A program made the translations under genes and the position numbers. This document shows, one piece after another, positions 1 through 16,552 of a stretch of 64,000 nt of DNA (positions are counted from its first letter, which is position 1; the number at the start of each line of letters is the position of its first letter). The notes beneath the pieces are model-generated. The model was not told the DNA's origin. It saw nothing but the letters and a program-made list of their open reading frames with translations, and did not search any database. The stretch spans positions 102,830 to 166,829 of the forward strand of contig NZ_LMMV01000012.1 in NCBI RefSeq assembly GCF_001422405.1, given 5' to 3'. The stretch comes from Pseudorhodoferax sp. Leaf267 (lineage in GTDB: Bacteria; Pseudomonadota; Gammaproteobacteria; Burkholderiales; Burkholderiaceae_C).

Positions 1-155
1 TGGGCATGCAGGTGCTGGCCGAGGGCGTGGAGACCGAGGCCCAGGCCGCCGCGCTGCGCCAGCTGGGCTGCAACGAGGTGCAGGGCTATCTGTACGGCAG
101 GCCCATGCCGTTCGATGAGTTCGGCGCCTGGCTGGCCACGAACGGGGCCGTGTGA
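1..155 (+). CDS. EAL-domain protein, C-terminal end (partial)
   Basis: Only the last ~50 codons are in the window; the 5' part lies upstream. The frame reads VLAEGVETEAQ followed by QGYLYGRPMP. Both are hallmark C-terminal motifs of EAL-type cyclic-di-GMP phosphodiesterase domains (the LAEGVET loop and the QGY-GRP strand). Whether the missing part has an intact EAL catalytic core, a GGDEF domain or sensor modules cannot be seen. The TGA stop at 153-155 shares its final A with the ATG of the next gene, so this gene is the visible start of a translationally coupled run of six genes. Family identity is firm; enzymatic activity is inference. Confidence 0.85.
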   Translation, partial: GMQVLAEGVETEAQAAALRQLGCNEVQGYLYGRPMPFDEFGAWLATNGAV

Positions 156-1264
156 TGCGGGGGCACTGCACACGCCGGCGCGCCTGCGCGGCGCTCGTGG
201 TGGCCGGGCTGGGCCTGGCGGGCTGCGGCCGCACGGCGCCGATCCGCATCGGCTTTCTCGCCGAGCTGACGGGCCGCACGGCGCGCTTCGGCGAGGACGG
301 ACGCAACGGCGTGATGCTGGCCGTGGAGCAGCGCAACCTGGCCGGCGGCGTGGCCGGGCGCCAGCTCGAACTGGTGGTGCAGGACCACGGCGCGCAGCTG
401 GCGCAGGCCCTGCAGGCCCTGCAGGCGCTGCAGGGCGCGGGCGTGCAGGCCGTGATCGGCCCGTTCTCCAGCGATGTCGCGGTGCAGCTGCTGCCGCAGG
501 CCGACGCCGCCCGGCTGCTGCTGCTGAGCCCCGTGGTCACGGCGGTGTCGCTGGCGGGCAAGGACGACCACCTCGTCCGGTTGAACCGCTCCACGCGCGA
601 GAACGCGCGCGACCTGGCGCAGCTGTTGCACCAGCGCGGCCAGCGCCGGCTGAGCCTGGCGACCGACCTGCGCAACCGCGCCTACCACGTGGCCTGGCGT
701 GACGACTTCCACGCCGCATTCACGGCCCTGGGCGGCGTGGTCGCGGCCGACGCCGAGTTCGGGCAGGGCGGTGCCGTCTCCTACGACGAGGTGATGCGTG
801 CCATGCTGGCCGGTCGGCCCGATGGACTGGTCGCCATCTGCGCCAGCGTGGACGCCGCGCTGATCGCACAGCAGGCCTTCAAGCACCGGGCCGTGCTGCC
901 CATGGCCACGCTGACCGCCAGCGACGCCCTGCTGGAACTGGGCGGCGAGGCCATCGAGGGCATCGTGGTGGTCCAGTCGCACGACCGGGCCAGCACGGCA
1001 CCGGCCTACCTGGCCTTCCACCAGGCCTACGAGGCGCGCTTCGGCCGCGAGCCCAGCTACAGCGCCGTGGCCTCGTACGACGCGGTGACGGTGCTGGCGC
1101 AGGCCCTGGCCCAGGCCGGGCGCGACGAGCCGCTGCGCGACGCGGTGCTGCGCCTGCAGCCCTACCCGGGCCTGCAGCAGCCGATCCGTTTCGACCGCTT
1201 CGGCGACAGCTCTCGGGCAGCGCACTTCAGCACCGTGCGCAATGGGCGTTTCGAGCCGCTGTGA
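155..1264 (+). CDS. Periplasmic-binding-protein-like lipoprotein (branched-chain amino acid receptor type)
   Basis: About 369 residues. The N terminus has a basic stretch, a hydrophobic core and a lipobox (LGLAGC), so the mature protein should be a lipid-anchored periplasmic protein. The body looks like a type I (Leu/Ile/Val-like) binding protein: IRIGFLAELTG opens the first lobe, VQAVIGPFSS matches the hinge region, and a late YDAVTVLAQAL helix is typical. No permease or ATPase gene is nearby. Instead its TGA (1262-1264) overlaps by one base the ATG of a sensor kinase. I infer that it presents a ligand to the downstream kinases rather than feeding an ABC importer. ATG 155 is chosen over GTG 152 because it overlaps the upstream stop. 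No clear Shine-Dalgarno is seen, consistent with translational coupling. Confidence 0.85.
   Translation: MRGHCTRRRACAALVVAGLGLAGCGRTAPIRIGFLAELTGRTARFGEDGRNGVMLAVEQRNLAGGVAGRQLELVVQDHGAQLAQALQALQALQGAGVQAVIGPFSSDVAVQLLPQADAARLLLLSPVVTAVSLAGKDDHLVRLNRSTRENARDLAQLLHQRGQRRLSLATDLRNRAYHVAWRDDFHAAFTALGGVVAADAEFGQGGAVSYDEVMRAMLAGRPDGLVAICASVDAALIAQQAFKHRAVLPMATLTASDALLELGGEAIEGIVVVQSHDRASTAPAYLAFHQAYEARFGREPSYSAVASYDAVTVLAQALAQAGRDEPLRDAVLRLQPYPGLQQPIRFDRFGDSSRAAHFSTVRNGRFEPL
404..430 (+). repeat. In-frame 9-bp tandem repeat, three copies
   Basis: Two identical 9-base units and a third with one change, coding QALQALQAL within an amphipathic helix of the binding lipoprotein. Copy-number change would keep the frame. 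Probably a local slippage product with no known role. Confidence 0.6.
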
Positions 1265-3591
1265 TGCGTGCGGCCGGTGGGTGGGGTGTGTGGTCCTTGC
1301 GCAGCCATCTGTCGGCGCTGCTGCTGGTCAGCATGCTGCTGATGCTGTGCGTGGTCGGCAGCACCGTGCTGGCCTACCGCATCCCGCGGATCGAGCGCGA
1401 GGCCCAGGCCAGCCTGCAGCGCGAGGTGGCCGAGACCGGCGCGCGCGTGGAGCTGCTGCTGAGCGCGCAGCAGGAGCGGCTGGCGCTGCTGGCGGCGCTG
1501 CTCGACACCACGCCCGCGTCGCGCGCCGATGCGGTGCTGGACAAGGCCGTGCGCCATGGCGACCCGATGCGGGCCGTGTACTGGGTCTCGCCGCAGGGCC
1601 GCATCGTGGCGGCGGGCCTGCCCGACGGCGGGCCGGCCCGGCGCGCCAGCCTGCTGGGCAGCGACCTGTCGGCCAACGGGCTGTTCCGTGCGGCGTCCGC
1701 CGGCGCCGGCGCGGCCTGGAGCGGCCGCTACCAGTCGGTGCTGGCCGGCGACGTCCTGGCCGGCGTCGCGCGGCGCGACCGACGCGGCGGCGTGCTGATC
1801 GCCGAGGTGCCGCTCGACCTGCTGCTGCAGACGGTCGAGGTGGCGGCGGGCGCCGGCGCCGCGTCGGTCTGGGTCGTCGACCGCAACGGCGAGATCATTG
1901 CCGACACGGACGACGGGCGCGACGTGGGCAAGTTCAACATCCGCAGCTGGCCGCTGATGCAGGCGCTGCTGCGCGGGCGCGAGATCGACGGGCGCCAGCA
2001 CTTCCAGGGCGCGGACTTCCGTGTGGCCTCGGTGCATTCCGCGGCGCTGGACTGGTACTTCGTCGGCCATGTGCCGCTGGGCCTGGCCAACCCCGAGGTG
2101 CGCGGCATGGTGCTGGCCGTGCTGGCCTCGATCGCCGGCTGCCTGGCCATCGGCCTGCTGATCGCGCCGGCCTGGGCGCGCACCATGGCGCGGCCGCTGC
2201 AGGGCATCGTCGCCCGGGCCGCGCAGACCATGGGCGGTGCGGCATCGGTGCAGGCCTGGCCGCGCGGGCGCGTGGCGGAGTTCAACCACCTGTCGGACAA
2301 GCTGACCGAGATGGCCCAGGCCCTGCACGAGCGCGAGCAGAGGTTCTCGGACATCTTCAATGCCTCGCCGGTGCCGATGGCGGTCAGCGACCTGCGCAAC
2401 GCGTCGCGGCTGCTCTATGCCAACGACGCCTGGTGCAGCACGCTGATGCACCGGCGCGAGGACGCGCTGGGCCGCACCGGCCTGGAACTGGGCCTGTTCA
2501 GCGAAGCACAGCGCGATGCGTTGCGCCGCCAGGCCCAGCACGGCGACATGAAGATCGAGTTCGCGATGCGGCGCGGCGACGGCGCGCTGCTGCAGACGCA
2601 GACCTTCGGCCGCCGTGTGGCCGTGGGCGGGGAGGACTGGCTGATCTGGGCCAACGTCGACATCGGCCCGCTGCGCCGCGTCGAGCAGGCCCAGCGCGAG
2701 CTGAACCAGCAGCTCGAAGCCCGCGTGCGCCAGCGCACGGACGCGCTGGCCGCGGCCCACGACGCCCTGTCGGCCACCGTGGCGCAGCTGCGCGCGGCGC
2801 AGGACGAACTCGTGCGCTCGGAGAAGATGGCCGCGCTGGGCCAGCTCGTGGCCGGCGTGGCGCACGAGCTCAACACGCCGCTGGGCAATGGCGTGATGGC
2901 CGTCAGCGCCATGGCCGATGCCACGCGCCGGTTCCAGTCGGCGATGCAGGCCGGACTCAAGCGCACCGACCTGCGCGCGCTGGTGGACGGCGTGCAGCAG
3001 GGCGTGGACATCGCCGGGCGCAACCTGCACCGCGCGGCCGACCTGGTGCACAGCTTCAAGCAGGTGGCGGTGGACCAGACCAGCGCGCAGCGGCGCCGCT
3101 TCGCGCTGGGCGAGGTGGTGCACGAGATGGTGGTGAGCCTGCAGCCCAGCTTTGCGCGCAAGCCCTGGCGCATCGACGTGGACGTGCCGGCCACCGGCCT
3201 GCAGATGGACAGCTACCCCGGCGCGCTGGGCCAGGCCGTCGGCAACCTGATCCAGAACGCCGTGCTGCACGGCTTCGACGGGCGCGCGCATGGCACGGTG
3301 CGCATCACGGCCGGGCCGGCGCAAGAGGGCTGGGTCTGGCTGCGCGTGGCCGACGACGGGCGCGGCATCGCGGCAGAGCACATCGGGCGCATCTTCGAGC
3401 CCTTCATGACGACCAGGATGGGCCGCGGCGGCACCGGCCTGGGCCTGCACATCAGCTACAACGCCGTGGTCGACCTGCTGGGCGGCACGCTGACGGTGCA
3501 CAGCACCGAGGGCCAGGGCGCCACGTTCGAGATGCGGCTGCCCCGGCTCGCACCCCTGACCGCGCCCGCCGTGGCGCCCGGCGCCGCATGA
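1264..3591 (+). CDS. Membrane sensor histidine kinase 1 of 4 (Cache-like/PAS/HPK4-type)
   Basis: 775 residues. A transmembrane segment lies near residues 14-38 and is followed by a ~250-residue periplasmic region with Cache-like features (AVYWVSPQGRIVA, then VWVVDRNGEIIAD). A second membrane segment (~280-305), a PAS domain with NDAWCS (~365-465) and a coiled coil [10 protein letters not shown] come next. The kinase core has the H-box HELNTPLGN (phospho-acceptor His534), N-box [11 protein letters not shown]1 DDGRGI, F-box EPFMTT and G2 GTGLGLHI. All residues needed for autophosphorylation are present. It is joined to the binding lipoprotein by a 1-nt overlap and to kinase 2 by ATGA. No cognate response regulator is encoded in the operon. 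The alternative GTG at 1261 adds one residue. Confidence 0.9.
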   Translation: MRAAGGWGVWSLRSHLSALLLVSMLLMLCVVGSTVLAYRIPRIEREAQASLQREVAETGARVELLLSAQQERLALLAALLDTTPASRADAVLDKAVRHGDPMRAVYWVSPQGRIVAAGLPDGGPARRASLLGSDLSANGLFRAASAGAGAAWSGRYQSVLAGDVLAGVARRDRRGGVLIAEVPLDLLLQTVEVAAGAGAASVWVVDRNGEIIADTDDGRDVGKFNIRSWPLMQALLRGREIDGRQHFQGADFRVASVHSAALDWYFVGHVPLGLANPEVRGMVLAVLASIAGCLAIGLLIAPAWARTMARPLQGIVARAAQTMGGAASVQAWPRGRVAEFNHLSDKLTEMAQALHEREQRFSDIFNASPVPMAVSDLRNASRLLYANDAWCSTLMHRREDALGRTGLELGLFSEAQRDALRRQAQHGDMKIEFAMRRGDGALLQTQTFGRRVAVGGEDWLIWANVDIGPLRRVEQAQRELNQQLEARVRQRTDALAAAHDALSATVAQLRAAQDELVRSEKMAALGQLVAGVAHELNTPLGNGVMAVSAMADATRRFQSAMQAGLKRTDLRALVDGVQQGVDIAGRNLHRAADLVHSFKQVAVDQTSAQRRRFALGEVVHEMVVSLQPSFARKPWRIDVDVPATGLQMDSYPGALGQAVGNLIQNAVLHGFDGRAHGTVRITAGPAQEGWVWLRVADDGRGIAAEHIGRIFEPFMTTRMGRGGTGLGLHISYNAVVDLLGGTLTVHSTEGQGATFEMRLPRLAPLTAPAVAPGAA

Positions 3592-5903
3592 CGCCGGGGG
3601 CCTGGCGCCTGCGCAGCCACCTGGCGGCCCTGCTGCTGGCCACCATGGGGCTGAACGTCGCCGTCATCGTCGTCACGGGCCTGCTGTGGCGGCTGCCCCA
3701 GCTCGAACGCGACAGCCAGCGCCAGGTGCGCCTGCACACGCATGACGTGGCCGCGCGGCTGGAGCTGCTGCTGGGCGCGCGCCAATCGCAGCTGGCCCTG
3801 CTGGCCGACGCGCTGCCAGGCGATGACGCGGCGCGCGACGGCGCGCTGCTGCAGGACCAGGTCGATGCGGTGGCCGATGCGGGCCGGGCCTTCCAGGCGC
3901 TGTACCTGCTGTCGCCAGCCGGCCAGGTGCGCGCACTCGGCCTGCCGCAGCCGGACCAGGGGCTGGCCGGGCGCGACCTGTCGGGCAGCGCGCTGGTGCG
4001 CGCCGTGCAGGCTGGCGGCCCGCTGGCCTGGAGCGCCGACCACCCGGCGCTGCAGTCCGGCGCCGCCACCTTGGGCCTGGCGCATCGGCGGGCAGACGGC
4101 CAGGTGCTGATCGGCGAGCTGCCCGAGGGCTTTGCCCAGGCGCTGCTGCATTCCGTGCCCGGCGACCCCGCCGCCGAGGTCTGGGTCGTGGACGCGGCCG
4201 GCACCGTGCTGGCCGATGCCGCGCAGGGCCGCTGGGTCGGCCAGGTGCTGGCGGCCGACGCACCGCTGTTGCATCCCGTGCGCGACGGCGGCGTGGCCCC
4301 CGGCGAGATCGTGGTCGACGGGCGTCGCTACTGGGCCGCCGCGGTGCCCGCCGCGCCGCTAGGCTGGTTCGTCATCGGGCGCACGCCGGCCGGCCTGCGC
4401 CACCCCGCGGTGCGCGAGCTGCTGCCCCATGCCGCCTCGGTGCTGGCAGCCTGCCTGCTCATGGGCATCGGCATCGCGTGGCTCTGGGCGCGCGGCATGG
4501 GCCGGCCGCTGCACGACATCCTGGCGCGTGCGGCACGCACCACGGCCGGCGCGGCGGGCGGGCGGCGCTGGCCGCGCGGCAGCGTGCGCGAGTTCAACGC
4601 CGTGTCGCGCGACCTGGAGGGCATGGCCGCGGCGCTGCAGGAGCGCGAGCAGAAGTTCCACGCGATCTTCAACGCGCTGCCGGTGCCCATGGTCGTGACC
4701 GACGCAGACCGCGAAGGGCGGGCCGTGCATGTCAACGATGCCTGGTGCAGCGCCTTGGGCTACCGGCGCGAGGACGTGCTGCAGCGCACGGGTGTGGAGA
4801 TGGGCCTGTTCACGTCGCAGCAGCACGAGTGCATGCTGGCCGAACTGCGCGAGGACGGCGCCGCCTTCGAATTCGAGATGCGGCGCAGCGATGGCCAGGC
4901 CATGCAGTTGCGCTGCTCGGCCCGGCGCGTGCGCCTGCCCGGTGCGCACTGGTGGATCCTGGCCAGCGTGGACGTGACGCCGCTGCGCGCGATCGAGCGC
5001 GAGCTGCGCGAGCTCAACCAGCAGCTGGAGCAGCGCGTGGCGCGGCGCACGCAGGCCCTGACCGAGGCCAACGCGCACCTGGCGGGCAAGGTGGAGCAGC
5101 TGCGCCTGGCGCAGAACGAGCTGGTGCAGTCGGAAAAGCTGGCGGCGCTGGGCGCGCTGGTTGCCGGCGTGGCGCACGAGCTCAACACGCCGCTGGGCAA
5201 CGGCGTGATGGCCGTCAGCGCCATGGCCGACGCGGCGCAGCGCTTTCGCGGCGCGGTGCAGGGCGGCGTGCGCCGGGCCGACCTGCGCCAGCTCATCGAC
5301 AGCATGCAGCAGGGCATCGACATCGCGCAGCGCAACCTGCGCCGCGCCGCCGACCTGGTGCACAGCTTCAAGCAGGTGGCGGCGGACCAGACCACCTCCC
5401 GGCGCCGCCGGTTCGAGCTGGCCGAGGTGGTGCACGAGATGGTCGTGAGCCTGCGCCCGAGCTTCAGCCGCACGCCCTACCGCATCGAGACCGACGTGCC
5501 CGAGACCGGCCTGCTGCTGGACAGCTACCCCGGCGCGCTGGGCCAGACCATTGCCAACCTGATCCAGAACGCCGTGCTGCACGGCTTCGACGGGCGCGAC
5601 CACGGCACGGTGCGCGTGTCGGCCGGCGCGGGCGCGGACGGCCAGGTCTGGCTGCGCGTGGCCGACGACGGCCGTGGCATCGCGCCCGAGCACATCGGCC
5701 GCATCTTCGAGCCCTTCATGACGACCAAGATGGGCCGTGGCGGCACCGGCCTGGGCCTGCACATCAGCTACAACGCCGTGGTCAACGTGCTGGGCGGCAC
5801 CCTGACCGTGCACAGCGTGCCCGGCGAGAGCAGCTGCTTCATGCTGCGCCTGCCGAGCGAGGCGCCGCAGTCCGGCCTGGGGCCGCTGGAGCGTGGTGAA
5901 TGA
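3588..5903 (+). CDS. Membrane sensor histidine kinase 2 of 4
   Basis: 771 residues, paralogous to the preceding gene over its whole length. It has a membrane segment at ~15-38, a Cache-like periplasmic part containing EVWVVDAAGTVLAD, a second membrane helix (~280-300), PAS with NDAWCSALGY, and the coiled coil ELNQQLEQRV. The H-box is HELNTPLGN (His530), the ATPase N-box [10 protein letters not shown], then DDGRGI, EPFMTT and GTGLGLHI, so the core looks competent. The sensor portion has diverged much more from its sisters than the catalytic portion, as expected if it reads a different ligand. It starts at ATG 3588 inside an ATGA overlap with kinase 1, has no separate Shine-Dalgarno, and its stop overlaps the next ATG in the same way. 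Confidence 0.9.
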   Translation: MTPGAWRLRSHLAALLLATMGLNVAVIVVTGLLWRLPQLERDSQRQVRLHTHDVAARLELLLGARQSQLALLADALPGDDAARDGALLQDQVDAVADAGRAFQALYLLSPAGQVRALGLPQPDQGLAGRDLSGSALVRAVQAGGPLAWSADHPALQSGAATLGLAHRRADGQVLIGELPEGFAQALLHSVPGDPAAEVWVVDAAGTVLADAAQGRWVGQVLAADAPLLHPVRDGGVAPGEIVVDGRRYWAAAVPAAPLGWFVIGRTPAGLRHPAVRELLPHAASVLAACLLMGIGIAWLWARGMGRPLHDILARAARTTAGAAGGRRWPRGSVREFNAVSRDLEGMAAALQEREQKFHAIFNALPVPMVVTDADREGRAVHVNDAWCSALGYRREDVLQRTGVEMGLFTSQQHECMLAELREDGAAFEFEMRRSDGQAMQLRCSARRVRLPGAHWWILASVDVTPLRAIERELRELNQQLEQRVARRTQALTEANAHLAGKVEQLRLAQNELVQSEKLAALGALVAGVAHELNTPLGNGVMAVSAMADAAQRFRGAVQGGVRRADLRQLIDSMQQGIDIAQRNLRRAADLVHSFKQVAADQTTSRRRRFELAEVVHEMVVSLRPSFSRTPYRIETDVPETGLLLDSYPGALGQTIANLIQNAVLHGFDGRDHGTVRVSAGAGADGQVWLRVADDGRGIAPEHIGRIFEPFMTTKMGRGGTGLGLHISYNAVVNVLGGTLTVHSVPGESSCFMLRLPSEAPQSGLGPLERGE

Positions 5904-8257
5904 GTACGGCCCGGTTGTCCAAAGGCGCTCGCACCGCAGGGCAGGCCGGCCGCCCCTTGAACGTGCATATCTGGGGCCTGGCGAACCATGTGCGCGGGCT
6001 GCTGCTGGTGGCCATGCTGTCGAGCTTCGCGCTGGCCTGCGGCGCGCTGGTGTTGCACCGGATCCCGCTGATCGAGCAGCAGGACCGCGCGGCGCTGCAG
6101 CGCGAGGTCGACGCCATGGGCGAGCGCCTGGCGCTGCAGCAGCAGGCCGTGCAGGGCCGGGTCGGGCAACTGGCGCGGCTGCTGGCGCGCGTGCCGGCCG
6201 AGGCGGCGGACGGCTGGCTCGATGCGCGCGTCGACGACGACGCGCTGCTGCTGGCGCTGTACCACCTCGGGCCGGACGATCGCGTGCAGGCGCTGGGCCT
6301 GCCGCCGGCCTTGCGCGCCGGGCGCGACGCCTGGCGCGGCCGCGACCTGGCGCGTAGCCCCCTGCTGCAGGCGCTGGCTGCCGGCGCCGGCCTGGCCTGG
6401 GACGGGCGCCACCCGTCGCCCATCACCGGCGAGCCGCGCGTGGCCCTGGCCTTGCGCGACGCGCAGGGCGGGGTGCTGGTGGCCGAGATGCAGGCCGGTG
6501 CGCTGGTGCGGGGCGCAGCGCTGGCGGGGGGCACAGACGCCTCGCCGGCCTGGGTCGTCGACCCGGCCGGCGAGCTGCTGGTCGACACGCGCCCCGGCGC
6601 CGCCCCGCCGCCGCGGGACCTGTCCGCCTGGCGCGCAGCGGCCCGTGCGGCGCAGAGGGGCGCCGCGCCCTCGCTGCGCATGGACGGCCAGCGCTGGCAG
6701 GCGGCGATGGCCGAGTCCGCCACGCTGGGCTGGACCATCGTCGGCCGCGTGCCGGCCGGGCTGGACAACCTGCAGGTGCGCCGGCTGGTGGTCTACAACG
6801 GCCTGGCGCTGCTGGCCAGCCTGCTGGCCGGCCTGGCCCTGGCCTCCTGGTGGGCGTGGCGCATGGCCCGGCCGCTGCATGACACCGTGGCCCGGGCGCG
6901 CCGCGCCATGGCCGGCGACCTGCCGCTGCCGGCAGCCCGGCGCAGCAGCGTGGTCGAGTTCAACCAGCTGGCCCATGCGCTGGAGACCATGGCGCTGGCC
7001 CTGCACGCGCGCGAACTGCAGTGGAAAAGCATCTTCCACGCAGCGCCGCTGGCGATGGGCCTGAGCTACACGCGGCAGGGCATGCGCCTGCTGGACGTGA
7101 ACGAGGCCTGGTGCCGCGAATACGGCTTCACGGCCGAGCAGGCGATCGGCCGCAGCCCTGTGCAGTTGGGCATGTTCGCCCAGCCGCCCACGCCCGAGGC
7201 AATGGACCGCGTCATCGCGGCCGGCCCCACGCGCACCCGGCTGCGCCTGCGGCGCCGCGACGGCCAGGAGCTGCAGGTCGTCATGTTCGGCCCGCATCCG
7301 GTGCCGGGCGCCGAACGCGAGGTGATCTGGGCCTCGATGGACATCGGCCCGCTGCGCCAGGCCGAGCAGACCGTGCGCGACCTGAACCAGCAGCTCGAGC
7401 AGCGCGTGGCCCAGCGCACCGAGGCGCTGGCGGCCTCCAACGCGGCGCTGGCGCGCACCGCGGAGCAGCTGCACCGCGCGCAGGACGAGCTCGTGCGGGC
7501 CGAGAAGATGGCCGGCCTGGGCGCACTGGTGGCCGGCATCGCGCACGAGCTGCACACGCCGCTGGGCAACGGCCTGCTGGCGGTCGGCAGCCTGGCCGGC
7601 GTGCTGGAGCGCTTCGCGCAGGCCACCGCGGCCGGGCTGCGCCGCGCCGACCTGCAGGACCTGCTGGCGGGCCTGGAGCAGGGCACGGAGATCGCCGTGC
7701 GCAGCCTGCGCCGCGCGGCCGACCTGGTGCAGAACTTCAAGCAGGTGGCGGTGGACCAGACCAGCGCGCAGCGGCGCCGCTTCGAGCTGCACGACCTGGT
7801 GCGCGACATGGCGGCCAGCCTGCGCCCGGGCCTGGCCGGCACGCCCTACACCATCGAGGTGGACGTGCCGGCGACCGGGCTGCAGCTGGACAGCTACCCC
7901 GGCGCGCTGGGCCAGGCGCTGGGCCAGCTGGTGCACAACGCGGTGCAGCACGGCTTCGACGGGCGCGACCACGGCTGCGTGCGGATCACGGGCGGGCCAG
8001 GTGCGCCGGGCCAGGTCTGGCTGCGCGTGGCCGACGATGGCCGCGGCATCGCGGCTGGCCGGCTGGCCCGCATCTTCGAGCCCTTCATCGGCGGCGCGCC
8101 CGGCCGCAACGGCACCGGCCTGGGCCTGTACGCCAGCGCCAACGCCGTGGCGACGCTGCTGGGCGGCAGCCTCACGGCCGACAGCACCGAGGGCCAGGGC
8201 AGCTGCTTCGAGCTGCGGCTGCCGACCGAGGCGCCGCACGCCGAGCCACCGACATGA
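5900..8257 (+). CDS. Membrane sensor histidine kinase 3 of 4, divergent catalytic boxes
   Basis: 785 residues with the same architecture as its three sisters: a ~30-residue N-terminal extension, one membrane helix, a Cache-like periplasmic region (AWVVDPAGELLVD), a second helix, PAS (NEAWCREYGF), coiled coil and kinase core. It departs at key boxes. The H-box is HELHTPLGN (His549; His replaces the Asn of the other three), the N-box region is VHNAVQHGFDG, and the F-box is EPFIGGAPGRNGTGLGLYAS in place of the [15 protein letters not shown] pattern. DDGRGI is intact, so ATP binding is likely. The altered lid could shift the balance toward phosphatase activity or a regulatory subunit role (inference). 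ATG 5900 overlaps the upstream TGA; a GGAG lies about 8 nt before it. Confidence 0.88.
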   Translation: MSTARLSKGARTAGQAGRPLNVHIWGLANHVRGLLLVAMLSSFALACGALVLHRIPLIEQQDRAALQREVDAMGERLALQQQAVQGRVGQLARLLARVPAEAADGWLDARVDDDALLLALYHLGPDDRVQALGLPPALRAGRDAWRGRDLARSPLLQALAAGAGLAWDGRHPSPITGEPRVALALRDAQGGVLVAEMQAGALVRGAALAGGTDASPAWVVDPAGELLVDTRPGAAPPPRDLSAWRAAARAAQRGAAPSLRMDGQRWQAAMAESATLGWTIVGRVPAGLDNLQVRRLVVYNGLALLASLLAGLALASWWAWRMARPLHDTVARARRAMAGDLPLPAARRSSVVEFNQLAHALETMALALHARELQWKSIFHAAPLAMGLSYTRQGMRLLDVNEAWCREYGFTAEQAIGRSPVQLGMFAQPPTPEAMDRVIAAGPTRTRLRLRRRDGQELQVVMFGPHPVPGAEREVIWASMDIGPLRQAEQTVRDLNQQLEQRVAQRTEALAASNAALARTAEQLHRAQDELVRAEKMAGLGALVAGIAHELHTPLGNGLLAVGSLAGVLERFAQATAAGLRRADLQDLLAGLEQGTEIAVRSLRRAADLVQNFKQVAVDQTSAQRRRFELHDLVRDMAASLRPGLAGTPYTIEVDVPATGLQLDSYPGALGQALGQLVHNAVQHGFDGRDHGCVRITGGPGAPGQVWLRVADDGRGIAAGRLARIFEPFIGGAPGRNGTGLGLYASANAVATLLGGSLTADSTEGQGSCFELRLPTEAPHAEPPT

Positions 8258-10605
8258 ACCGCCCCGGCCACACCGTCTGGCGCCTGCGCACCCATCTGTC
8301 GGCCCTGCTGGTCGTGGCCCTGCTGCTGAGCTTCGCCCTGGTGCTGGCCGGCCTGCTGGCCTACCGCGTGCCGCGCATCGAGGAGGAGAGCCGGCAGGCG
8401 CTGCTGCACGAGGTCGGCGAGATGCGCACGCGCGTGGAGCTGCAGGTGCTGCGCTACAGCAGCCGGCTGGCCCTGCTGGAGGACCTGGTCGACGACGGCC
8501 CGCCCGACCTGGCCCAGGCGACGCTGGACGCCGGCGTGGGCGACGGCAGCGTGTTGCGGGCGCTCTACCGCGCCTCGTCGCGGGGCCGCATCACGGCCGT
8601 GGGCCTGCCGCCCGCGCGGCAGGCGCAGCGCAGGGACCTGCTGGGCAACGACCTGTCGGGCAACCGCCTGTTCCGCGCGGTGACGACGGCCAGCAGCGGC
8701 GTGGCCTGGAGCGCCATGTACGCGTCGGTGCTGGACGGCGAGCCATCGGTGGCGCTGGCCCGGCGCGACGCGCATGGCGATGTGCTGGTGGCCGAATTGC
8801 CGGTGCAGGCGCTGCTGAGCGCGGTGCAGCTGGCCGCCGGGGCGAATGCCTCCGCCATCTGGGTGGTGGACCGCCATGGCGCGCTGCTGGCCGACACGCG
8901 CGGCGGGAAGGACATCGGCAGGCTGCATTTGCGGGACGGGCCGCTGATGCAGAGCCTGCGGCAAGGCGGCGGCGACGTGGAGCGCTTGCGGCTCGGCGAC
9001 GCACGGTTCCGCGCGACGGTGTCGCATGCGCCGACGCTGGACTGGTTCTTCATCGGCCGCGTGCCCGTGGGCCTGGAGAACCCGGCGGTGCGCGACCTCG
9101 TGCTGCTTGCGGTCGCCGCGCTGGCCGGGGCGATGGGCATCGGCCTGCTCGTGGCGCCGGTCTGGGCCCAGCGGCTGGCGCGGCCTTTGCACTGCATCAT
9201 CGAGCGCGCCGGCCGCAGCACCAGTGGCCAGGGCGCGGGCCTGCCGTGGCCGCGCGGTGCGGTGGCCGAGTTCAACCGGCTGTCGGGCGACCTGGAGGCC
9301 ATGACCGGGCAGCTGCTCGCGCGCGAGCAGAAGTCGCAGGCCGTGTTCCACGCGGCACCCGTGCCCATGGTCGTGGCCGACGTGGACGACGACTACCGCC
9401 TGCTGGACGTGAACGAGGCCTGGTGCCGCGAGTTCCAGTACCGGCGCAGGAAGGTGCTGGGCCGCACCACGGCGGACATCGACCTGTGGGTGGACCGCAA
9501 AGCCCGGGTCGCGCTGCGCCAGAACGCCGAGCAGGGTCGCGTCATCGGCGATGCCCGGCTGCGTCGCCGCGACGGCACGGTGGTGCTGGTGCAACTGCAC
9601 GGCCGCCTGGCCGTGCTGCACAGCGCGCGCTGGCTGATCTGGGCTGCCATCGACGTGGGGCCGCTGCGCCGCATCGAGCAGGACCTGCGCGAGCTGAACC
9701 AGCAGCTCGAGGCCCGTGTCGCCCAGCGCACCCAGGCCCTGGCCGCCTCCAACGACGCGCTGTCGCAGACCGTGGCGCAGCTGCGTGCCGCGCAGAACGA
9801 GCTGGTGCGCGCCGAGAAGATGGCCGCGTTGGGCAGCCTGGTGGCCGGCGTGGCGCACGAGCTGAACACGCCCCTGGGCAACGGCGTCATGGCCGTCAGC
9901 GCGGTGGCCGACGCCATGCGCGACTTCGGCGCGGCGACCCGGGCCGGCGTCACGCGCGCAGAGCTGCAGCGCCTGGTCGACAGCCTTGAGCAGGGCCTGG
10001 ACATCGCCGGTCGCAACCTGCGCCGGGCGGCCGATCTGGTGCACAGCTTCAAGCAGGTGGCGGTGGACCAGACCAGCGCGCAGCGGCGCAGCTTCGAGCT
10101 GGGCGAAGTGGTGCGCGAGATCGTGGTCAGCCTGCGGCCGAGCTTCAGCCGCACGCCCTACCGCGTGGAGCTGGCCGTCCCCGAGGCAGGGCTGCGGCTG
10201 GACAGCTACCCGGGCGCGCTGGGCCAGGCCATCGCCAACCTGGTGCAGAACGCGGTGCTGCATGGCTTTGACGGCCGCGACCACGGCACGGTGACGCTGT
10301 CGGGCTGGCGCGACCCGGCCGACGGCCGCATCGTGCTGCGCGTGGCCGACGACGGGCGCGGCATCCCGGCGGCCGTGCTGCCGCGCATCTTCGACCCCTT
10401 CATGACCACGCGCATGGGCCGCGGCGGCACCGGGCTGGGCCTGCACATCAGCTACAACGCCGTGGCCAACCTGCTGGGCGGCACGCTGACCGTGCACAGC
10501 CAGGAGGGCCACGGCGCGGCGTTCGAGCTGCGCCTGCCGCCGCAGGCGCCGCGCGCCGAGGGCGCGGACGCAGCCGTGGCGGGTGGCGGACCAAACACGG
10601 TCTAA
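8254..10605 (+). CDS. Membrane sensor histidine kinase 4 of 4
   Basis: 783 residues and the last member of the tandem set. It has an N-terminal helix (~15-38), a Cache-like periplasmic domain with [14 protein letters not shown], a second helix (~285-308), PAS with [10 protein letters not shown], coiled coil, H-box HELNTPLGN (His535), [23 protein letters not shown] and GTGLGLHI. All catalytic motifs are present. It shares a 54-bp perfectly identical DNA block with kinase 1 (10036-10089 versus 3043-3096), which suggests recent duplication or gene conversion. ATG 8254 sits in an ATGA overlap with kinase 3. It ends in TAA, 74 nt before the unrelated yebC, so the operon appears to stop here, although no terminator hairpin is visible. 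Confidence 0.9.
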
Positions 10606-10679: not shown

Positions 10680-11393
10680 ATGGGCGCGCAATGGAAAGCC
10701 AAGGGCAAGGAGCTGGCGGCCAACGCCAAGGGCCGTTTGTTCAGCAAGCTGGCCAAGGACATCATGCTGGCGGCACGCAACGGTGCCGATCCCGCGAGCA
10801 ACGCCAAGCTGCGGCTGGTGGTCGAGGCCGCGCGCAAGGTCTCCATGCCCAAGGACACGCTGGACCGCGCCATCAAGAAGGGCGCGGGCCTGACCGGCGA
10901 GGCCGTGCACTTCGAGCATGTGATCTACGAAGGCTTTGCGCCGCACCGCGTGCCGGTGATGGTGGAATGCCTGACGGACAACGTGAACCGCACGGCGCCC
11001 GAGATGCGCGTGCTGTTCCGCAAGGGGCACCTGGGCACATCGGGCTCGGTGTCCTGGGATTTCGACCATCTCGGCATGGTGGAGGCCGAGCCCGCCGCCA
11101 AGGATGCCGACCCCGAGCTGGCTGCGATCGAGGCCGGCGCGCAGGATTTCGAGCCCGGCCATGAAGAGGGCACGACGCTGTTCCTGACCGACCCGGCCGA
11201 CCTGGACATCGTGAGCCGCGCACTGCCGGCCCAGGGCTTCACGGTGCTGTCGGCCAAGCTGGGCTACAAGGCCAAGAACCCGATCGCGCCGGACAGCCTG
11301 TCGGCCGCGGAGCTGGAAGAGGTGGAGGCCTTCCTGGCCGCCATCGACGCGAACGACGATGTGCAGAACCTGTTCGTGGGGCTGGGCAGCTAA
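10680..11393 (+). CDS. yebC: YebC/PmpR-family protein (TACO1-like)
   Basis: 237 residues, the normal length for the family. The N terminus ([11 protein letters not shown], then [20 protein letters not shown]) and the [10 protein letters not shown] and GSVSWDF motifs are diagnostic of YebC. Members act in the cytoplasm as ribosome-associated factors that relieve pausing at proline stretches and/or as DNA-binding regulators. A strong AGGAGA lies 6-11 nt before ATG 10680 and fixes the start. The gene follows the four-kinase operon by 74 nt and has its own ribosome site, so it is probably independent. Its TAA overlaps, tail to tail, the TAG of the minus-strand hydrolase. Confidence 0.95.
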
Positions 11394-13314: not shown

Positions 13315-14248
13315 GGCGTGTTGCTGGGGTAAAGCCTTTCGGCAGGCCGGCTTCCGGCGTCATGCCGTAGACCGGCTCGCCGGGCAGGCCGGCGATCAGG
13401 GGTGCGCGGGCCGCGATGAGTTGCTGGAGATCGATGCCGGTGCCGATGCCGCTGGCCTCGAACATGAAGACCAGGTCTTCCGTGACCACGTTGCCCGAGG
13501 CACCGGGCGCATACGGGCAGCCGCCCAGGCCGCCGAGCGAGGCGTCGAAGGTGCGCACGCCTTCCTCATAGGCCGCCAGGCAGTTGGCCAGGCCCAGGCC
13601 GCGCGTGTTGTGCATGTGGGCCGCGCCGGCATGCTCGCCCAGCTCGGCACGCAGCCGGCGGAACAATCGGCGCACCTGGGCCGGGTTGGCGTAGCCCACG
13701 GTGTCGGACAGGCCGGATTCGTCGGCACCGGCCTGCACGCACTGCACGGCCAGGGCGATGACCTCGTCCTCGGGCACCAGGCCCTGCAGCGTGCAGCCGA
13801 AGGCCGTGGAGATGCCGGCTTCGAGCTTCACGTGGGGTGCCCGTTCGCGGCACAACTCGGAAATGGCGCGCACCTCCTCGACCATCTCTTCGCGCGTCTT
13901 GCGCACGTTGGCCAGCGAGTGCGCGGCGCTGGCCGAGACGGGCATGGTCAGCTTGTGCACGCCGGCTGCGAGCGCGGCCTCGGCGCCGCGCCGGTTGGGC
14001 ACCAGCGCCATCACGGTGAGGCCGGGCAGCGTGATCGCGTGGCGCACGACCTCGGCCGCGTCGGCCATCTGCGGCAGCAGTTTGGCGGGAACGAAGGAGG
14101 CGACCTCGATCTCGCGCACGCCGGCTGCGTGCAGCGCGTCGATCCAGCGCAGCTTGTCGGCCGTGGGCATCGTGGACTTGACCGATTGCAGGCCGTCGCG
14201 CGGGCCGACCTCGCTGATCAGCACGTCGGCAGTGGGGGTAGGTGTCAT
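13307..14248 (-). CDS. Hydroxymethylglutaryl-CoA lyase family protein
   Basis: 313 residues. HMG-CoA lyases cleave 3-hydroxy-3-methylglutaryl-CoA to acetoacetate and acetyl-CoA in leucine or terpenoid breakdown. The TIM-barrel metal and active-site motifs are present: SEVGPRDGLQ (catalytic Arg/Asp), EIEVASFVP, HMHNTRGLGLAN (metal-binding histidines), and GGLGGCPYAPGASGN, which contains the family's active-site Cys loop. The start (14248) lies in an ATGA overlap with the upstream histidine kinase and the end overlaps the CoA-transferase, so the enzyme is co-translated with its probable regulator. Homologous lyases acting on related acyl-CoAs are an alternative. Confidence 0.92.
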   Translation of the reverse strand: MTPTPTADVLISEVGPRDGLQSVKSTMPTADKLRWIDALHAAGVREIEVASFVPAKLLPQMADAAEVVRHAITLPGLTVMALVPNRRGAEAALAAGVHKLTMPVSASAAHSLANVRKTREEMVEEVRAISELCRERAPHVKLEAGISTAFGCTLQGLVPEDEVIALAVQCVQAGADESGLSDTVGYANPAQVRRLFRRLRAELGEHAGAAHMHNTRGLGLANCLAAYEEGVRTFDASLGGLGGCPYAPGASGNVVTEDLVFMFEASGIGTGIDLQQLIAARAPLIAGLPGEPVYGMTPEAGLPKGFTPATRHV

Positions 14249-15558
14249 GGAGTGGAGGGTGTGGCGAACACGAGTGTGGCGCAGGTGCCGCCCAGGCGCG
14301 TGGAAGTGTCCAGCGACAGCGTGGCGCCATGGCGCTCGGCGATGGCGCGCGCGATCGGCAGGCCCAGGCCGCTGCCGGGGGCGGCGGCGTCGGCGCTGCG
14401 GTAGAAGCGTTCGAAGACGCGTTCGCGCTCGGCAGGCGCGATGCCGGGGCCGCTGTCATGCACCTCGATGCGGCCTGGGGCCAGCACCAGGTCGACGCGG
14501 CCCTGTTCGGGGCTGTACTTGAGCGCGTTGTCGAGCAGGTTGCGCAGCAGGATCAACAGGGCGTCGGCATCGCCGCGCGCCGGGGGCAGGTGGGCTTCAT
14601 CGCCCACGATGTCCAGCCCCAGGTCGATGCCGCGCTCGCCGGCCTGGGGCAGCGCATCGGTGATGGCTTGGCGCGCGAGCGGCGCCAGCGCCAGGGGCGG
14701 GAGCAGGCCGGCCGGGGCCTCGGCCTGCTGGCGCGCCAGCACCAGCAGTTGCTGCATGAGCCGGATCGCGCGGTCGATGCCCTGCTGGAGCCGGCCCACG
14801 GCCACGGCGCGCGCGGCCTCGTCGCCGGCGCGTTCCAGCGCCTGCACCTGCAACTTGAGCGCGGTGAGCGGCGAGCGCAGCTCGTGTGCGGCGTTCGAGA
14901 CGAAGGACTTCTGCGCCGTGAAGGCCTGGTCCAGCCGGCCGAACAGCAGGTTGATCTCGTCCACGAGCGGGCGCACCTCGTCGGGCAGGCCTTCGCCGGC
15001 CAGTGGCGCCAGGTCGTCGGCCGCGCGCAGTGCGACTTCGGCGCGCGCGCGTTCGAGCGGCGCCAGCGAACGGCTGATGCCCCACCAGGCCAGCAGCATC
15101 AAGATCGGCGCGATCACGGCCATGGGCAGCGTGGCGCGCAGCGCCAGCGCACGCGCGCGGGCCTGGCGCGCGTCCAGGTTCTGCGCGATCTGGATGGTCT
15201 GGAAGGGGGTCTGCACCGCGTAGACGCGGTAGTGCACGCCGCGCATCAGCGCATCGGAAAAGCCCAGCACCGCGCGCGGTGGCAGCGGCACGGGCGCGGA
15301 GCGGAACAGCTGCACGCCGTCCGGCCCCCAGATCTGGATCTGGTATTCCTCGCTGCCGTTGGACTCCAGCGAGGGCGGCGCCAGCGGCAGGCCGCCGCGC
15401 AGCGCGTGGGCCATCTGCTGCAGGTGGTAGTCGAACATCTCGTCGGCCTGCTGCACGGCGCTGCGCCAGGCCGTCATGGCCTGGATCGCGGCGGCCAGCA
15501 CGATGGCGGTCATGATGAAGCCGAGCAGGCGCCTTCTGAGCGAGTGTGGCTGGCTCAT
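14245..15558 (-). CDS. QseC-like sensor histidine kinase
   Basis: 437 residues. Membrane helices lie at ~10-30 and ~143-160 and flank a ~110-residue periplasmic sensor, with a HAMP-like stretch after the second. The H-box is NAAHELRSPLTALKLQ (His225), the N-box NLLDNALKYSP, G1 DSGPGIAP and G2 GSGLGLPIA. The arrangement and motifs are those of the QseC/PmrB/TctE class. ATG 15558 overlaps the regulator's TGA, giving the usual regulator-then-kinase order. Its own stop overlaps the HMG-CoA lyase start, so the pair is wired to acyl-CoA metabolism genes. The ligand is unknown; a carboxylic acid is a reasonable guess from context. Confidence 0.9.
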   Translation of the reverse strand: MSQPHSLRRRLLGFIMTAIVLAAAIQAMTAWRSAVQQADEMFDYHLQQMAHALRGGLPLAPPSLESNGSEEYQIQIWGPDGVQLFRSAPVPLPPRAVLGFSDALMRGVHYRVYAVQTPFQTIQIAQNLDARQARARALALRATLPMAVIAPILMLLAWWGISRSLAPLERARAEVALRAADDLAPLAGEGLPDEVRPLVDEINLLFGRLDQAFTAQKSFVSNAAHELRSPLTALKLQVQALERAGDEAARAVAVGRLQQGIDRAIRLMQQLLVLARQQAEAPAGLLPPLALAPLARQAITDALPQAGERGIDLGLDIVGDEAHLPPARGDADALLILLRNLLDNALKYSPEQGRVDLVLAPGRIEVHDSGPGIAPAERERVFERFYRSADAAAPGSGLGLPIARAIAERHGATLSLDTSTRLGGTCATLVFATPSTP

Positions 15559-16214
15559 GGCTTGGGCATCAGATAACCCAGGCCGCGCACGTTCTGGATC
15601 ACGCCGGCGCCGAGCTTCTTGCGCAGCCCGTGGATGTAGACCTCGATGGCATTGCTGCTGATGTCGTCCTTCCAGCTGTAGAGCTTTTCCTCGAGCTGCG
15701 CGCGCGACAGCACCACGCCGGGGCGGCTCATGAGCGCCTCCAGCACGGCCCATTCGCGCGCCGACAGACTGACCGGCTGGCCGTCCTTGCTCGCCTCGTG
15801 CGTGACCGGGTTCAGCTCCAGCCCCTCGTAGCGCACGACCGGGTCGGCCCGGCCCGCGCTGCGCCGGATCAGCGCGCGGATGCGGGCCAGCAGCTCGTCG
15901 AGTTCATAGGGTTTGAGCACGTAGTCGTCGGCGCCGGCGTCCAGCCCGGCCACGCGCTGCGCCAGCGCGTCGCGCGCGGTGACGATGAGCACGGGCACCT
16001 TGTCGTGCCGCGCACGCAGGGCGCGCAGCACGTCCAGCCCATCGCGCCGCGGCAGGCCCAGGTCCAGGAGCACCAGGTCGTAGCGCTCCGTGCGCAGGGC
16101 CTGGTCGGCCATCTCGCCATCGCGCACCCAGTCCACGGCGAAGCGCTCGGCGCGCAGCACGTCGAGCACCGTCTCGCCGATCATGGTGTCGTCTTCGACC
16201 AGCAGCAATCGCAT
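15555..16214 (-). CDS. OmpR-family response regulator (QseB-like)
   Basis: 219 residues from ATG 16214. The receiver has LLLVEDDTMIG with the acidic pair, phospho-acceptor Asp in LVLLDLGLPRRDG, Thr in IVTARDALAQRV, and Lys in DDYVLKPYE. The C-terminal winged helix contains LSAREWAVLEALM, SRAQLEEKLYSWKDDISSNA and HGLRKKLGAGVIQNVRGLGY, very close to QseB. An ATG three codons upstream (16223) is also possible. I prefer 16214 because the protein then begins directly at the conserved MRLLLVEDD. First gene of a five-gene overlapping operon; the promoter should lie in the 16215-16552 region. Confidence 0.92.
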   Translation of the reverse strand: MRLLLVEDDTMIGETVLDVLRAERFAVDWVRDGEMADQALRTERYDLVLLDLGLPRRDGLDVLRALRARHDKVPVLIVTARDALAQRVAGLDAGADDYVLKPYELDELLARIRALIRRSAGRADPVVRYEGLELNPVTHEASKDGQPVSLSAREWAVLEALMSRPGVVLSRAQLEEKLYSWKDDISSNAIEVYIHGLRKKLGAGVIQNVRGLGYLMPKP

Positions 16215-16552
16215 GCCGGTCATTATGGAAGTGGTGTCGCGGCACCGGCTGAAGCCGGGCTTAAGAGTCCGCCAAGGTTCGGCGAGCGCGAAGGGCCGGC
16301 AGCGGTACGTTTCAGGCACCGAGGGCATGATCTTTTGTCCACGAGACGGACGGCTTGACGCTTGATTTTGTATCAAAATAGCTGCAAGTTTCGGCTGGAC
16401 CCAGGACCAGGCGGCGGGCTTGCATGGGTGAGCCGCCCGGTGTTCGCAGGAGGCTTTCGGATGCGTCATGACGCGACACGCGCGGACAGGCTGCCCTGGC
16501 TTGGCTGGGCAGCCGGTGGTGGACTGGCCGCGGCCCGGCATGGCCGCCCCCC
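16215..16552. other. Divergent intergenic region (338 nt) with an AT-rich island
   Basis: This is the longest stretch without a gene, between the divergent QseB-like regulator and the hybrid kinase. An AT-rich island at about 16355-16390 breaks the GC-rich background. It contains TTGACG (16355-16360), a 5-bp inverted repeat TTGAT-N5-ATCAA (16362-16376) and ATCAAAATAGCTGC, a string I associate from memory with short intergenic repeats in Comamonadaceae. It may hold promoters for both genes, but no convincing -35/-10 pair at proper spacing is visible. A short open frame from 16468 to beyond 16553 runs in another frame and looks like a compositional artefact. Confidence 0.5.

Follow-up and report, generated by a model that had tools for sequence, protein, structure and literature searches.

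Why should a bacterium encode four full-length membrane histidine kinases head to tail behind a binding lipoprotein, and which regulator would they address? The question is raised by a stretch of 64,000 nucleotides from Pseudorhodoferax sp. Leaf267 (G000:C12:102830-166829, where C12 is contig NZ_LMMV01000012.1), here called the window. An earlier note, made from the window itself, described four paralogous histidine kinases (HK1 to HK4) headed by a lipoprotein, with no receiver gene in the operon, and suggested that they form a receptor array. We have examined the DNA upstream of the window and the corresponding loci of other genomes. The answer that we consider likely is that this is a tandem-expanded sensory locus for cyclic di-GMP (c-di-GMP) signalling, in which many sensors control one enzyme output.

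The complete locus

With the upstream DNA included, the gene order is RR-HK-SBP-HK-RR-SBP-HK-HK-HK-HK, then yebC (RR, response regulator; SBP, solute-binding protein; Table 1). The lipoprotein SBP_B does not head this run, which begins about 10.3 kb upstream of the window, and the apparent lack of a receiver gene is an artefact of the window edge: window positions 3-155 are the end of RR2, whose stop codon overlaps the SBP_B start by 1 nucleotide. A single lipoprotein-headed operon without a receiver is ruled out by the finding of RR2 in the upstream DNA. Since a receiver is encoded within the operon, the external shared regulator implied by the earlier note is not needed.

The remaining genes are as first described. 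The lipoprotein and the four kinases exist with the sizes claimed, and the coupling overlaps are borne out (TGATG, 1 nucleotide, at the SBP_B/HK1 junction and ATGA at all three junctions between kinases). The four kinases are mutually homologous and have orthologues in other genomes; they are not a chance succession. All six HK matches in this genome (at 1e-30), both SBP matches (at 1e-35) and both DUF3369 matches fall within this locus, and a genome-wide DUF3369 search found no such regulator outside the array.

The assembly shows damage in both regulator genes, located in the EAL stretches, which are nearly identical. RR2 contains isolated Ns as well as duplicated segments about 100 and 107 bases long (L009:17400-18160; C12 about 102230-102990; L numbers denote our sequence stretches), while RR1 has a missing stretch and a frame change (about L009:9480-9690; C12 about 94310-94520). 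The window itself starts one base past an N. The sequences were left unmended, and the alignment of these two regulators used their intact part only. Mis-ordering of the locus by the assembly appears to be ruled out, since the links between HK_B and the RR2 start, between HK4 and yebC, and between the left flank and RR1 would allow no other linear order without an inversion.

Table 1. Genes of the array and its right-hand neighbour in Pseudorhodoferax sp. Leaf267
Feature	Coordinates	Strand	Description
RR1	C12: from 92527		REC-DUF3369-GGDEF-EAL
HK_A	C12:94507-96858
SBP_A	C12:96855-97967
HK_B	C12:97967-100315
RR2	C12:100551-102984		REC-DUF3369-GGDEF-EAL response regulator
RR2, 3' end	window 3-155	+	End of EAL domain; gene start at window -2278 (C12:100551)
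SBP_B	window 155-1264	+	Peripla_BP_6 (LivJ/LivK-type) binding lipoprotein, 369 aa, lipobox LAGC
HK1	window 1264-3591	+	dCache-PAS-HisKA-HATPase membrane kinase, 775 aa
HK2	window 3588-5903	+	771 aa; ATGA overlap with HK1
HK3	window 5900-8257	+	785 aa; belongs to the class with a changed ATP lid; H-box HELHTP
HK4	window 8254-10605	+	783 aa; final array gene, 74 nucleotides ahead of yebC
yebC	window 10680-11393		Directly after HK4

The array across the genus

An array of this type is present in all six genomes of the host genus, in each case as one run upstream of yebC with four to eight kinases, zero to four lipoproteins and one or two regulators. The named members of the genus are mostly Pseudorhodoferax; one genome, G256, was placed in it by its kinship label. 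The order is RR-SBP-HK-HK-HK-SBP-HK-SBP-HK-SBP-HK-HK-HK in P. soli, RR-SBP-HK-HK-SBP-HK-SBP-HK-SBP in Leaf265, RR-SBP-HK-HK-RR-HK-SBP-HK-SBP in P. aquiterrae (G175), RR-SBP-HK-HK-RR-HK-HK-SBP in DE0202 (G069, deposited as Variovorax boronicumulans; its HK2 is frameshifted) and RR-HK-HK-HK-HK in G256. Overlaps of 1 or 4 nucleotides occur at 28 of the 43 array junctions with a usable start; the script preferred starts near the preceding stop, and two RR-SBP junctions with a wrong start were not counted.

Many-to-one signalling is well supported by this gene content: four to eight kinases face one or two regulators in every genus genome, and both DUF3369 regulators of Leaf267 lie in its array. 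The proposal of the earlier note that several sensors and lipoproteins feed one output is thus probably correct.

The array and yebC are separated by a 2CSK_N-type kinase gene in two genus relatives (L049:10151-11680 and L047:10028-12040), and beyond yebC in the window there is a pair resembling a kinase and a regulator, as judged by eye (14245-16541, minus strand).

Regulators and their predicted output

RR1 and RR2 share the domain make-up REC-DUF3369-GGDEF-EAL. The acceptor Asp and the Thr and Lys were seen by eye in the aligned receivers; we take the roles of these residues, and of the EAL and GGDEF signatures below, to be the usual ones. Between RR1 and RR2, 103 of 120 receiver positions are the same, with a nearly identical helix 1, as are 456 of 596 positions of the intact parts. 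The signatures EAL, NVSP, EITES, DDFGTGFSSL, LKIDR, AEGVET and VQG are kept in all seven complete regulators of the relatives, to which this result applies, the Leaf267 copies being damaged in the assembly; the EAL domain of P. aquiterrae RR1 scores 255.5 bits (Pfam). At the GGDEF site all nine regulators, the partial ones of Leaf267 included, have AGDTF or TGDTF, and this degenerate motif rules out an active diguanylate cyclase. With the EAL signatures kept and the GGDEF site degenerate, the regulator output is therefore likely to be regulated breakdown of c-di-GMP.

Kinases and binding lipoproteins

HATPase_c scores above the Pfam cut-off in all six kinases of Leaf267, and PAS-type models are found in the window kinases. 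The other domains are less clear-cut. dCache_1 exceeds its cut-off only in HK1 (57.8 against 45 bits) and is below it or unlisted in the others. HisKA is below its cut-off in five of the six (19.5-23.6 against 26.9 bits in HK1, HK2 and HK4) and unlisted in HK3. An AlphaFold2 model of the HK1 sensor (mean pLDDT 87.8) resembles the dCache sensors Mlp24, KinD and PctA (Foldseek E about 5e-10 to 4e-9, TM-score to the query about 0.5-0.6). The earlier note had called the kinase cores nearly identical and the sensors different. The pairwise identities rule out the former, the cores of the six kinases being 62-75% identical (mean 68), but agree with the latter, the sensors being the more divergent part (31-48%, mean 38). 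Among the 29 full-length array kinases of the six genomes (DE0202 HK2 is omitted from this count and from the trees below), 28 keep the phospho-accepting His of the H-box. HK3, P. soli HK8 and G256 HK4 form one class, conserved in three genomes, with a changed ATP lid and a HELH or HELQ H-box.

SBP_B matches Peripla_BP_6 (160.6 bits, Pfam), and its AlphaFold2 model (mean pLDDT 92.2) matches LivJ/LivK-type binding proteins; SBP_A and SBP_B are 47-48% identical. A role as part of an ABC (ATP-binding cassette) importer is unsupported: judging by the gaps in the six genus genomes, the array genes are too tightly packed to fit a permease, and none of the PF02653 (permease) matches listed for these genomes lies at the array (ATPase genes were not searched). 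Many single-copy SBPs have EWAA in line with an acidic position that is variable in the array SBPs. On this evidence the array SBPs may bind different ligands; we claim no particular one. P. soli SBP3 differs from the other array SBPs in that the lipobox cysteine is absent in the alignment, and it may be soluble.

Turnover within the array

P. soli has eight kinases and a single regulator in its array. The open reading frame of its SBP4 opens with a stretch that resembles, by eye, a regulator N-terminus (MNEQ..EF..DDEDVHAST); a second regulator has thus probably disappeared from this place, and the kinases downstream of it were retained. In the trees, P. soli HK7 and HK8 group with Leaf267 HK2 and HK3, and SBP4 with SBP_B; P. 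soli HK6 matches HK1 only by its order and its neighbouring SBP.

Sensors and cores do not always share a history. In trees of the 29 kinases the HK4 sensors of P. aquiterrae and DE0202 cluster with the HK4 sensors of Leaf267, P. soli and Leaf265, whereas their cores cluster with Leaf267 HK2, P. soli HK7 and G256 HK3. In the approximately unbiased test, with groups picked after the trees were seen, the core grouping fails on the sensor data (p 3e-7) and the sensor grouping on the core data (p 0.012). Because the two trees conflict and each data set rejects the grouping of the other, one sensor/core exchange between array members is supported.

The one kinase without its His is Leaf265 HK4, in which the H-box reads SELNAPLGH instead of HELNTPLGN (H534S, T538A, N542H; the His codon CAC has become TCC) and the N, G1 and G2 boxes are kept. 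Its three changes at core positions that are invariant in the other 28 kinases all fall in the H-box; HK_B, HK3 and P. soli HK4 have three such private departures each too, none at the His. Between Leaf265 and P. soli HK4, codons differ at 19 of 255 sensor positions (7.5%) and 38 of 287 core positions (13.2%), the opposite of the pattern in HK1-HK3 of the same two genomes (sensor 124/764, core 55/861; p 2e-6). The sensor of this phospho-dead kinase might thus still work through partners, but this is a hint and not proof, since the core of P. soli HK4, which keeps its His, has changed about as fast (13 against 12 and 15 against 9 changes with two outgroups).

For seven close kinase pairs, dN/dS (the ratio of non-synonymous to synonymous rates) is 0.15-0.67 in the sensor and 0.11-0.30 in the core, always below 1; one sub-stretch of 80 codons in the DHp (dimerization and histidine phosphotransfer) domain gives 1.17. 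The other five of the 12 kinase pairs give 0.34-0.68 and 0.31-0.41, respectively, three RR pairs 0.15-0.20 and five SBP pairs 0.15-0.35.

The single-copy trio in other genera

With a threshold of 1e-40, SBP_B has relatives in 30 of 250 family genomes, that of Leaf267 included. We fetched 34 stretches around SBP_B matches, 30 of them from other genera (L051-L080), and in 11 of these 30 an RR, an SBP and one kinase stand side by side (L051-053, L064-066, L068, L069, L071, L073, L078). A scan of named genomes, which partly overlaps the family set, took the best 80 of 174 relatives, six loci being from the host genus and 74 from elsewhere. Of the 74, 17 contain the trio with a single kinase of this type (L085, L088, L091-093, L096, L097, L104, L115, L124, L125, L130, L138, L140, L141, L143, L160); a further kinase match, distant at 27%, lies close by in L088, L096 and L097. 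The trio records include Rhodoferax, Dechloromonas, Azonexus, Formivibrio, Roseateles, Competibacteraceae, Marinobacter, Hahellaceae, Oleiphilaceae and Spirochaetes.

The expansion was seen in the host genus. Two kinases with matches of at least 40% occur in none of the 74 non-genus loci of the named scan. In the draw of 250 family genomes no array was found outside the genus: a 1e-90 match was present in 23 of 247 non-genus genomes (up to four candidates scored in each), and the three that had two carried them on different contigs or far apart. A class-level draw of 369 genomes (up to two candidates scored in each) returned Leaf267 as the sole match. Single copies with dedicated regulators in relatives, which the earlier note had regarded as evidence against an array, are found outside the genus, often as the RR-SBP-HK trio, but not inside it.

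Proposed route and alternatives

From gene content, packing, conservation, expansion and motif state we infer the following route. Extracytoplasmic Peripla_BP_6 lipoproteins would catch small ligands (amino-acid- or amide-like, by family) and, to judge from gene adjacency, dock on the dCache domains of the neighbouring kinases, as LuxP does on LuxQ. One or two REC-DUF3369-GGDEF(degenerate)-EAL regulators of the same gene run would be the common receiver of the kinases, and phosphorylation of the regulator would alter its phosphodiesterase activity, that is, c-di-GMP hydrolysis, as its domains and motifs suggest. The ancestral unit was probably a single RR-SBP-HK trio; in the genus, kinases and SBPs would have multiplied, exchanged parts and been lost, while one or two regulators stayed. 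In favour of such partnerships, the available text of PMC11113362 counts 11 characterised SBP-kinase couples, 10 of them encoded by neighbouring genes.

A number of points weigh against this route. The evidence for it consists of genes and sequence. The same available text (PMC11113362) reports that no binding between SBP and sensor was found for AgtS and AruS, so neighbourhood can mislead. The REC domains score under the Pfam cut-off (27.2-28.4 against 30.2 bits), and both Leaf267 regulator genes, damaged in the assembly, may not be intact in the strain. DHp helix 1 of HK_B and HK3 is unlike that of the other four Leaf267 kinases, and in P. aquiterrae and DE0202 helix 1 of the second regulator is visibly unlike that of the first; complete sharing is therefore not certain, and some kinases may not address all regulators. 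Outside the array, five of the six genus genomes encode one more DUF3369 protein each. In G256, with its four kinases, a search at 1e-35 found no SBP of this family, so these SBPs are dispensable there. The full trio was not seen in 19 of the 30 and 57 of the 74 other loci, some of which are cut by contig ends; in 21 of the 74 the SBP is followed within 4.5 kb by an EAL match, but a DUF3369 receiver is missing. Twelve of these 21 are from Accumulibacter (L103, L105, L109, L111, L112, L118, L119, L121, L123, L131, L134, L145); these may be a one-component form, with the SBP acting directly on a membrane c-di-GMP enzyme.

Could each kinase or block instead have a regulator of its own, the tandem order reflecting duplication only? 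Three of the six genomes do have two regulators, and the differences in helix 1 just described, with two types among the kinases and unlike regulator pairs in P. aquiterrae and DE0202, would suit such parallel, insulated systems. We nevertheless consider them improbable in view of the excess of kinases over regulators in all six genomes, the absence of a further DUF3369 regulator in Leaf267, the close agreement of its RR1 and RR2 receivers, and the apparent regulator loss in P. soli that left the following kinases in place. Still less credence, in our judgement very little, can be given to a decaying duplication cluster maintained by amplification without shared function. The frameshift in DE0202 HK2, the lack of SBPs in G256 and the H-box loss in Leaf265 look like decay, but the His is otherwise kept throughout, dN/dS in the sensors and cores of the seven close pairs stays at 0.11-0.67 outside the one DHp stretch, and orthologous kinase classes are common to several genomes.

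The array proposed in the earlier note, a hetero-oligomeric receptor with mixed dimers or clusters in which a subunit signals through the histidine of another, is a tentative possibility and on the whole unlikely. It would account for a Leaf265 HK4 whose sensor is more conserved than its His-less core and is in keeping with sensor/core exchange between paralogues; the paralogous pairs ChrS/HrrS and RetS/GacS form hetero-oligomers, according to the portion of PMC9491836 at hand. Against this, a single one of the 29 kinases lacks the His, P. soli HK4 illustrates that the core can change about as fast with the His in place, and the conservation of the sensor may only reflect a recent loss. A recombining array, in which tandem kinases swap sensors and cores and pair as mixed dimers on lipoproteins that they share, such that a His-less kinase still adds input to the single c-di-GMP phosphodiesterase, is a speculative extension that we regard as rather doubtful. 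The tandem-expanded locus with a shared c-di-GMP regulator remains our preferred reading.

Relation to known systems

On the input side the nearest mechanism, by analogy, would be LuxP-LuxQ, the Vibrio harveyi quorum-sensing receptor, in which a tandem-PDC (Cache-type) kinase reads the ligand via a periplasmic binding protein (PMC8534201, in the part available). There, one binding protein serves one kinase and phosphate passes to LuxU, whereas here the kinases are tandem paralogues, the binding proteins are Peripla_BP_6 lipoproteins and the output is an EAL enzyme. SBPs can also control c-di-GMP enzymes in systems for which we take NspS-MbaA to be the type; in these the enzyme itself is the receptor, while here a kinase and a soluble receiver protein intervene. 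Activation of diguanylate cyclases and phosphodiesterases by SBPs is described in the accessible part of PMC11113362, and in that of PMC8846402 only SBP_bac_3, within the PBP (periplasmic binding protein) clan, had been studied in c-di-GMP networks. DUF3369 with REC has been tied to HD-GYP proteins in Alphaproteobacteria (PMC9756655, excerpt).

Several kinases feed one relay protein in the KinA-KinE/Spo0F and LuxN plus LuxP/LuxQ/LuxU networks (PMC12471899). In the available portion of that source these are not presented as one operon, in contrast to the four to eight kinases found here head to tail with their likely receiver. ChrS/HrrS, RetS/GacS and the pseudokinase DivL are examples of paralogous or degenerate kinases that act through another kinase (PMC9491836, in part); the ChrS variant described there has lost its CA (catalytic and ATP-binding) domain, whereas the Leaf265 kinase, known from its sequence alone, has lost its His. 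No description of this array or of the RR-SBP-HK module was found among the literature matches listed, which were judged by title and the start of the abstract; most subscription journals lie outside this search, and a description may be in print. No paper on tandem paralogous kinases was listed, two were for DUF3369, and the one for Pseudorhodoferax together with c-di-GMP concerns the watermelon rhizosphere. The parts are of known kinds. What is new is a packed, expanding and recombining array with its own c-di-GMP regulator.

Significance

Kinase networks in which many inputs converge on one output are difficult to chart if their genes lie dispersed in the genome. In this locus as many as eight kinases and four binding proteins are packed together with the probable receiver, and the whole has undergone different rearrangements in six related genomes. 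The loss of a regulator, of the SBPs or of a histidine, and the exchange of sensor and core, provide natural experiments on kinase specificity and on signalling by mixed dimers. The locus also points to a widespread RR-SBP-HK module for c-di-GMP signalling.

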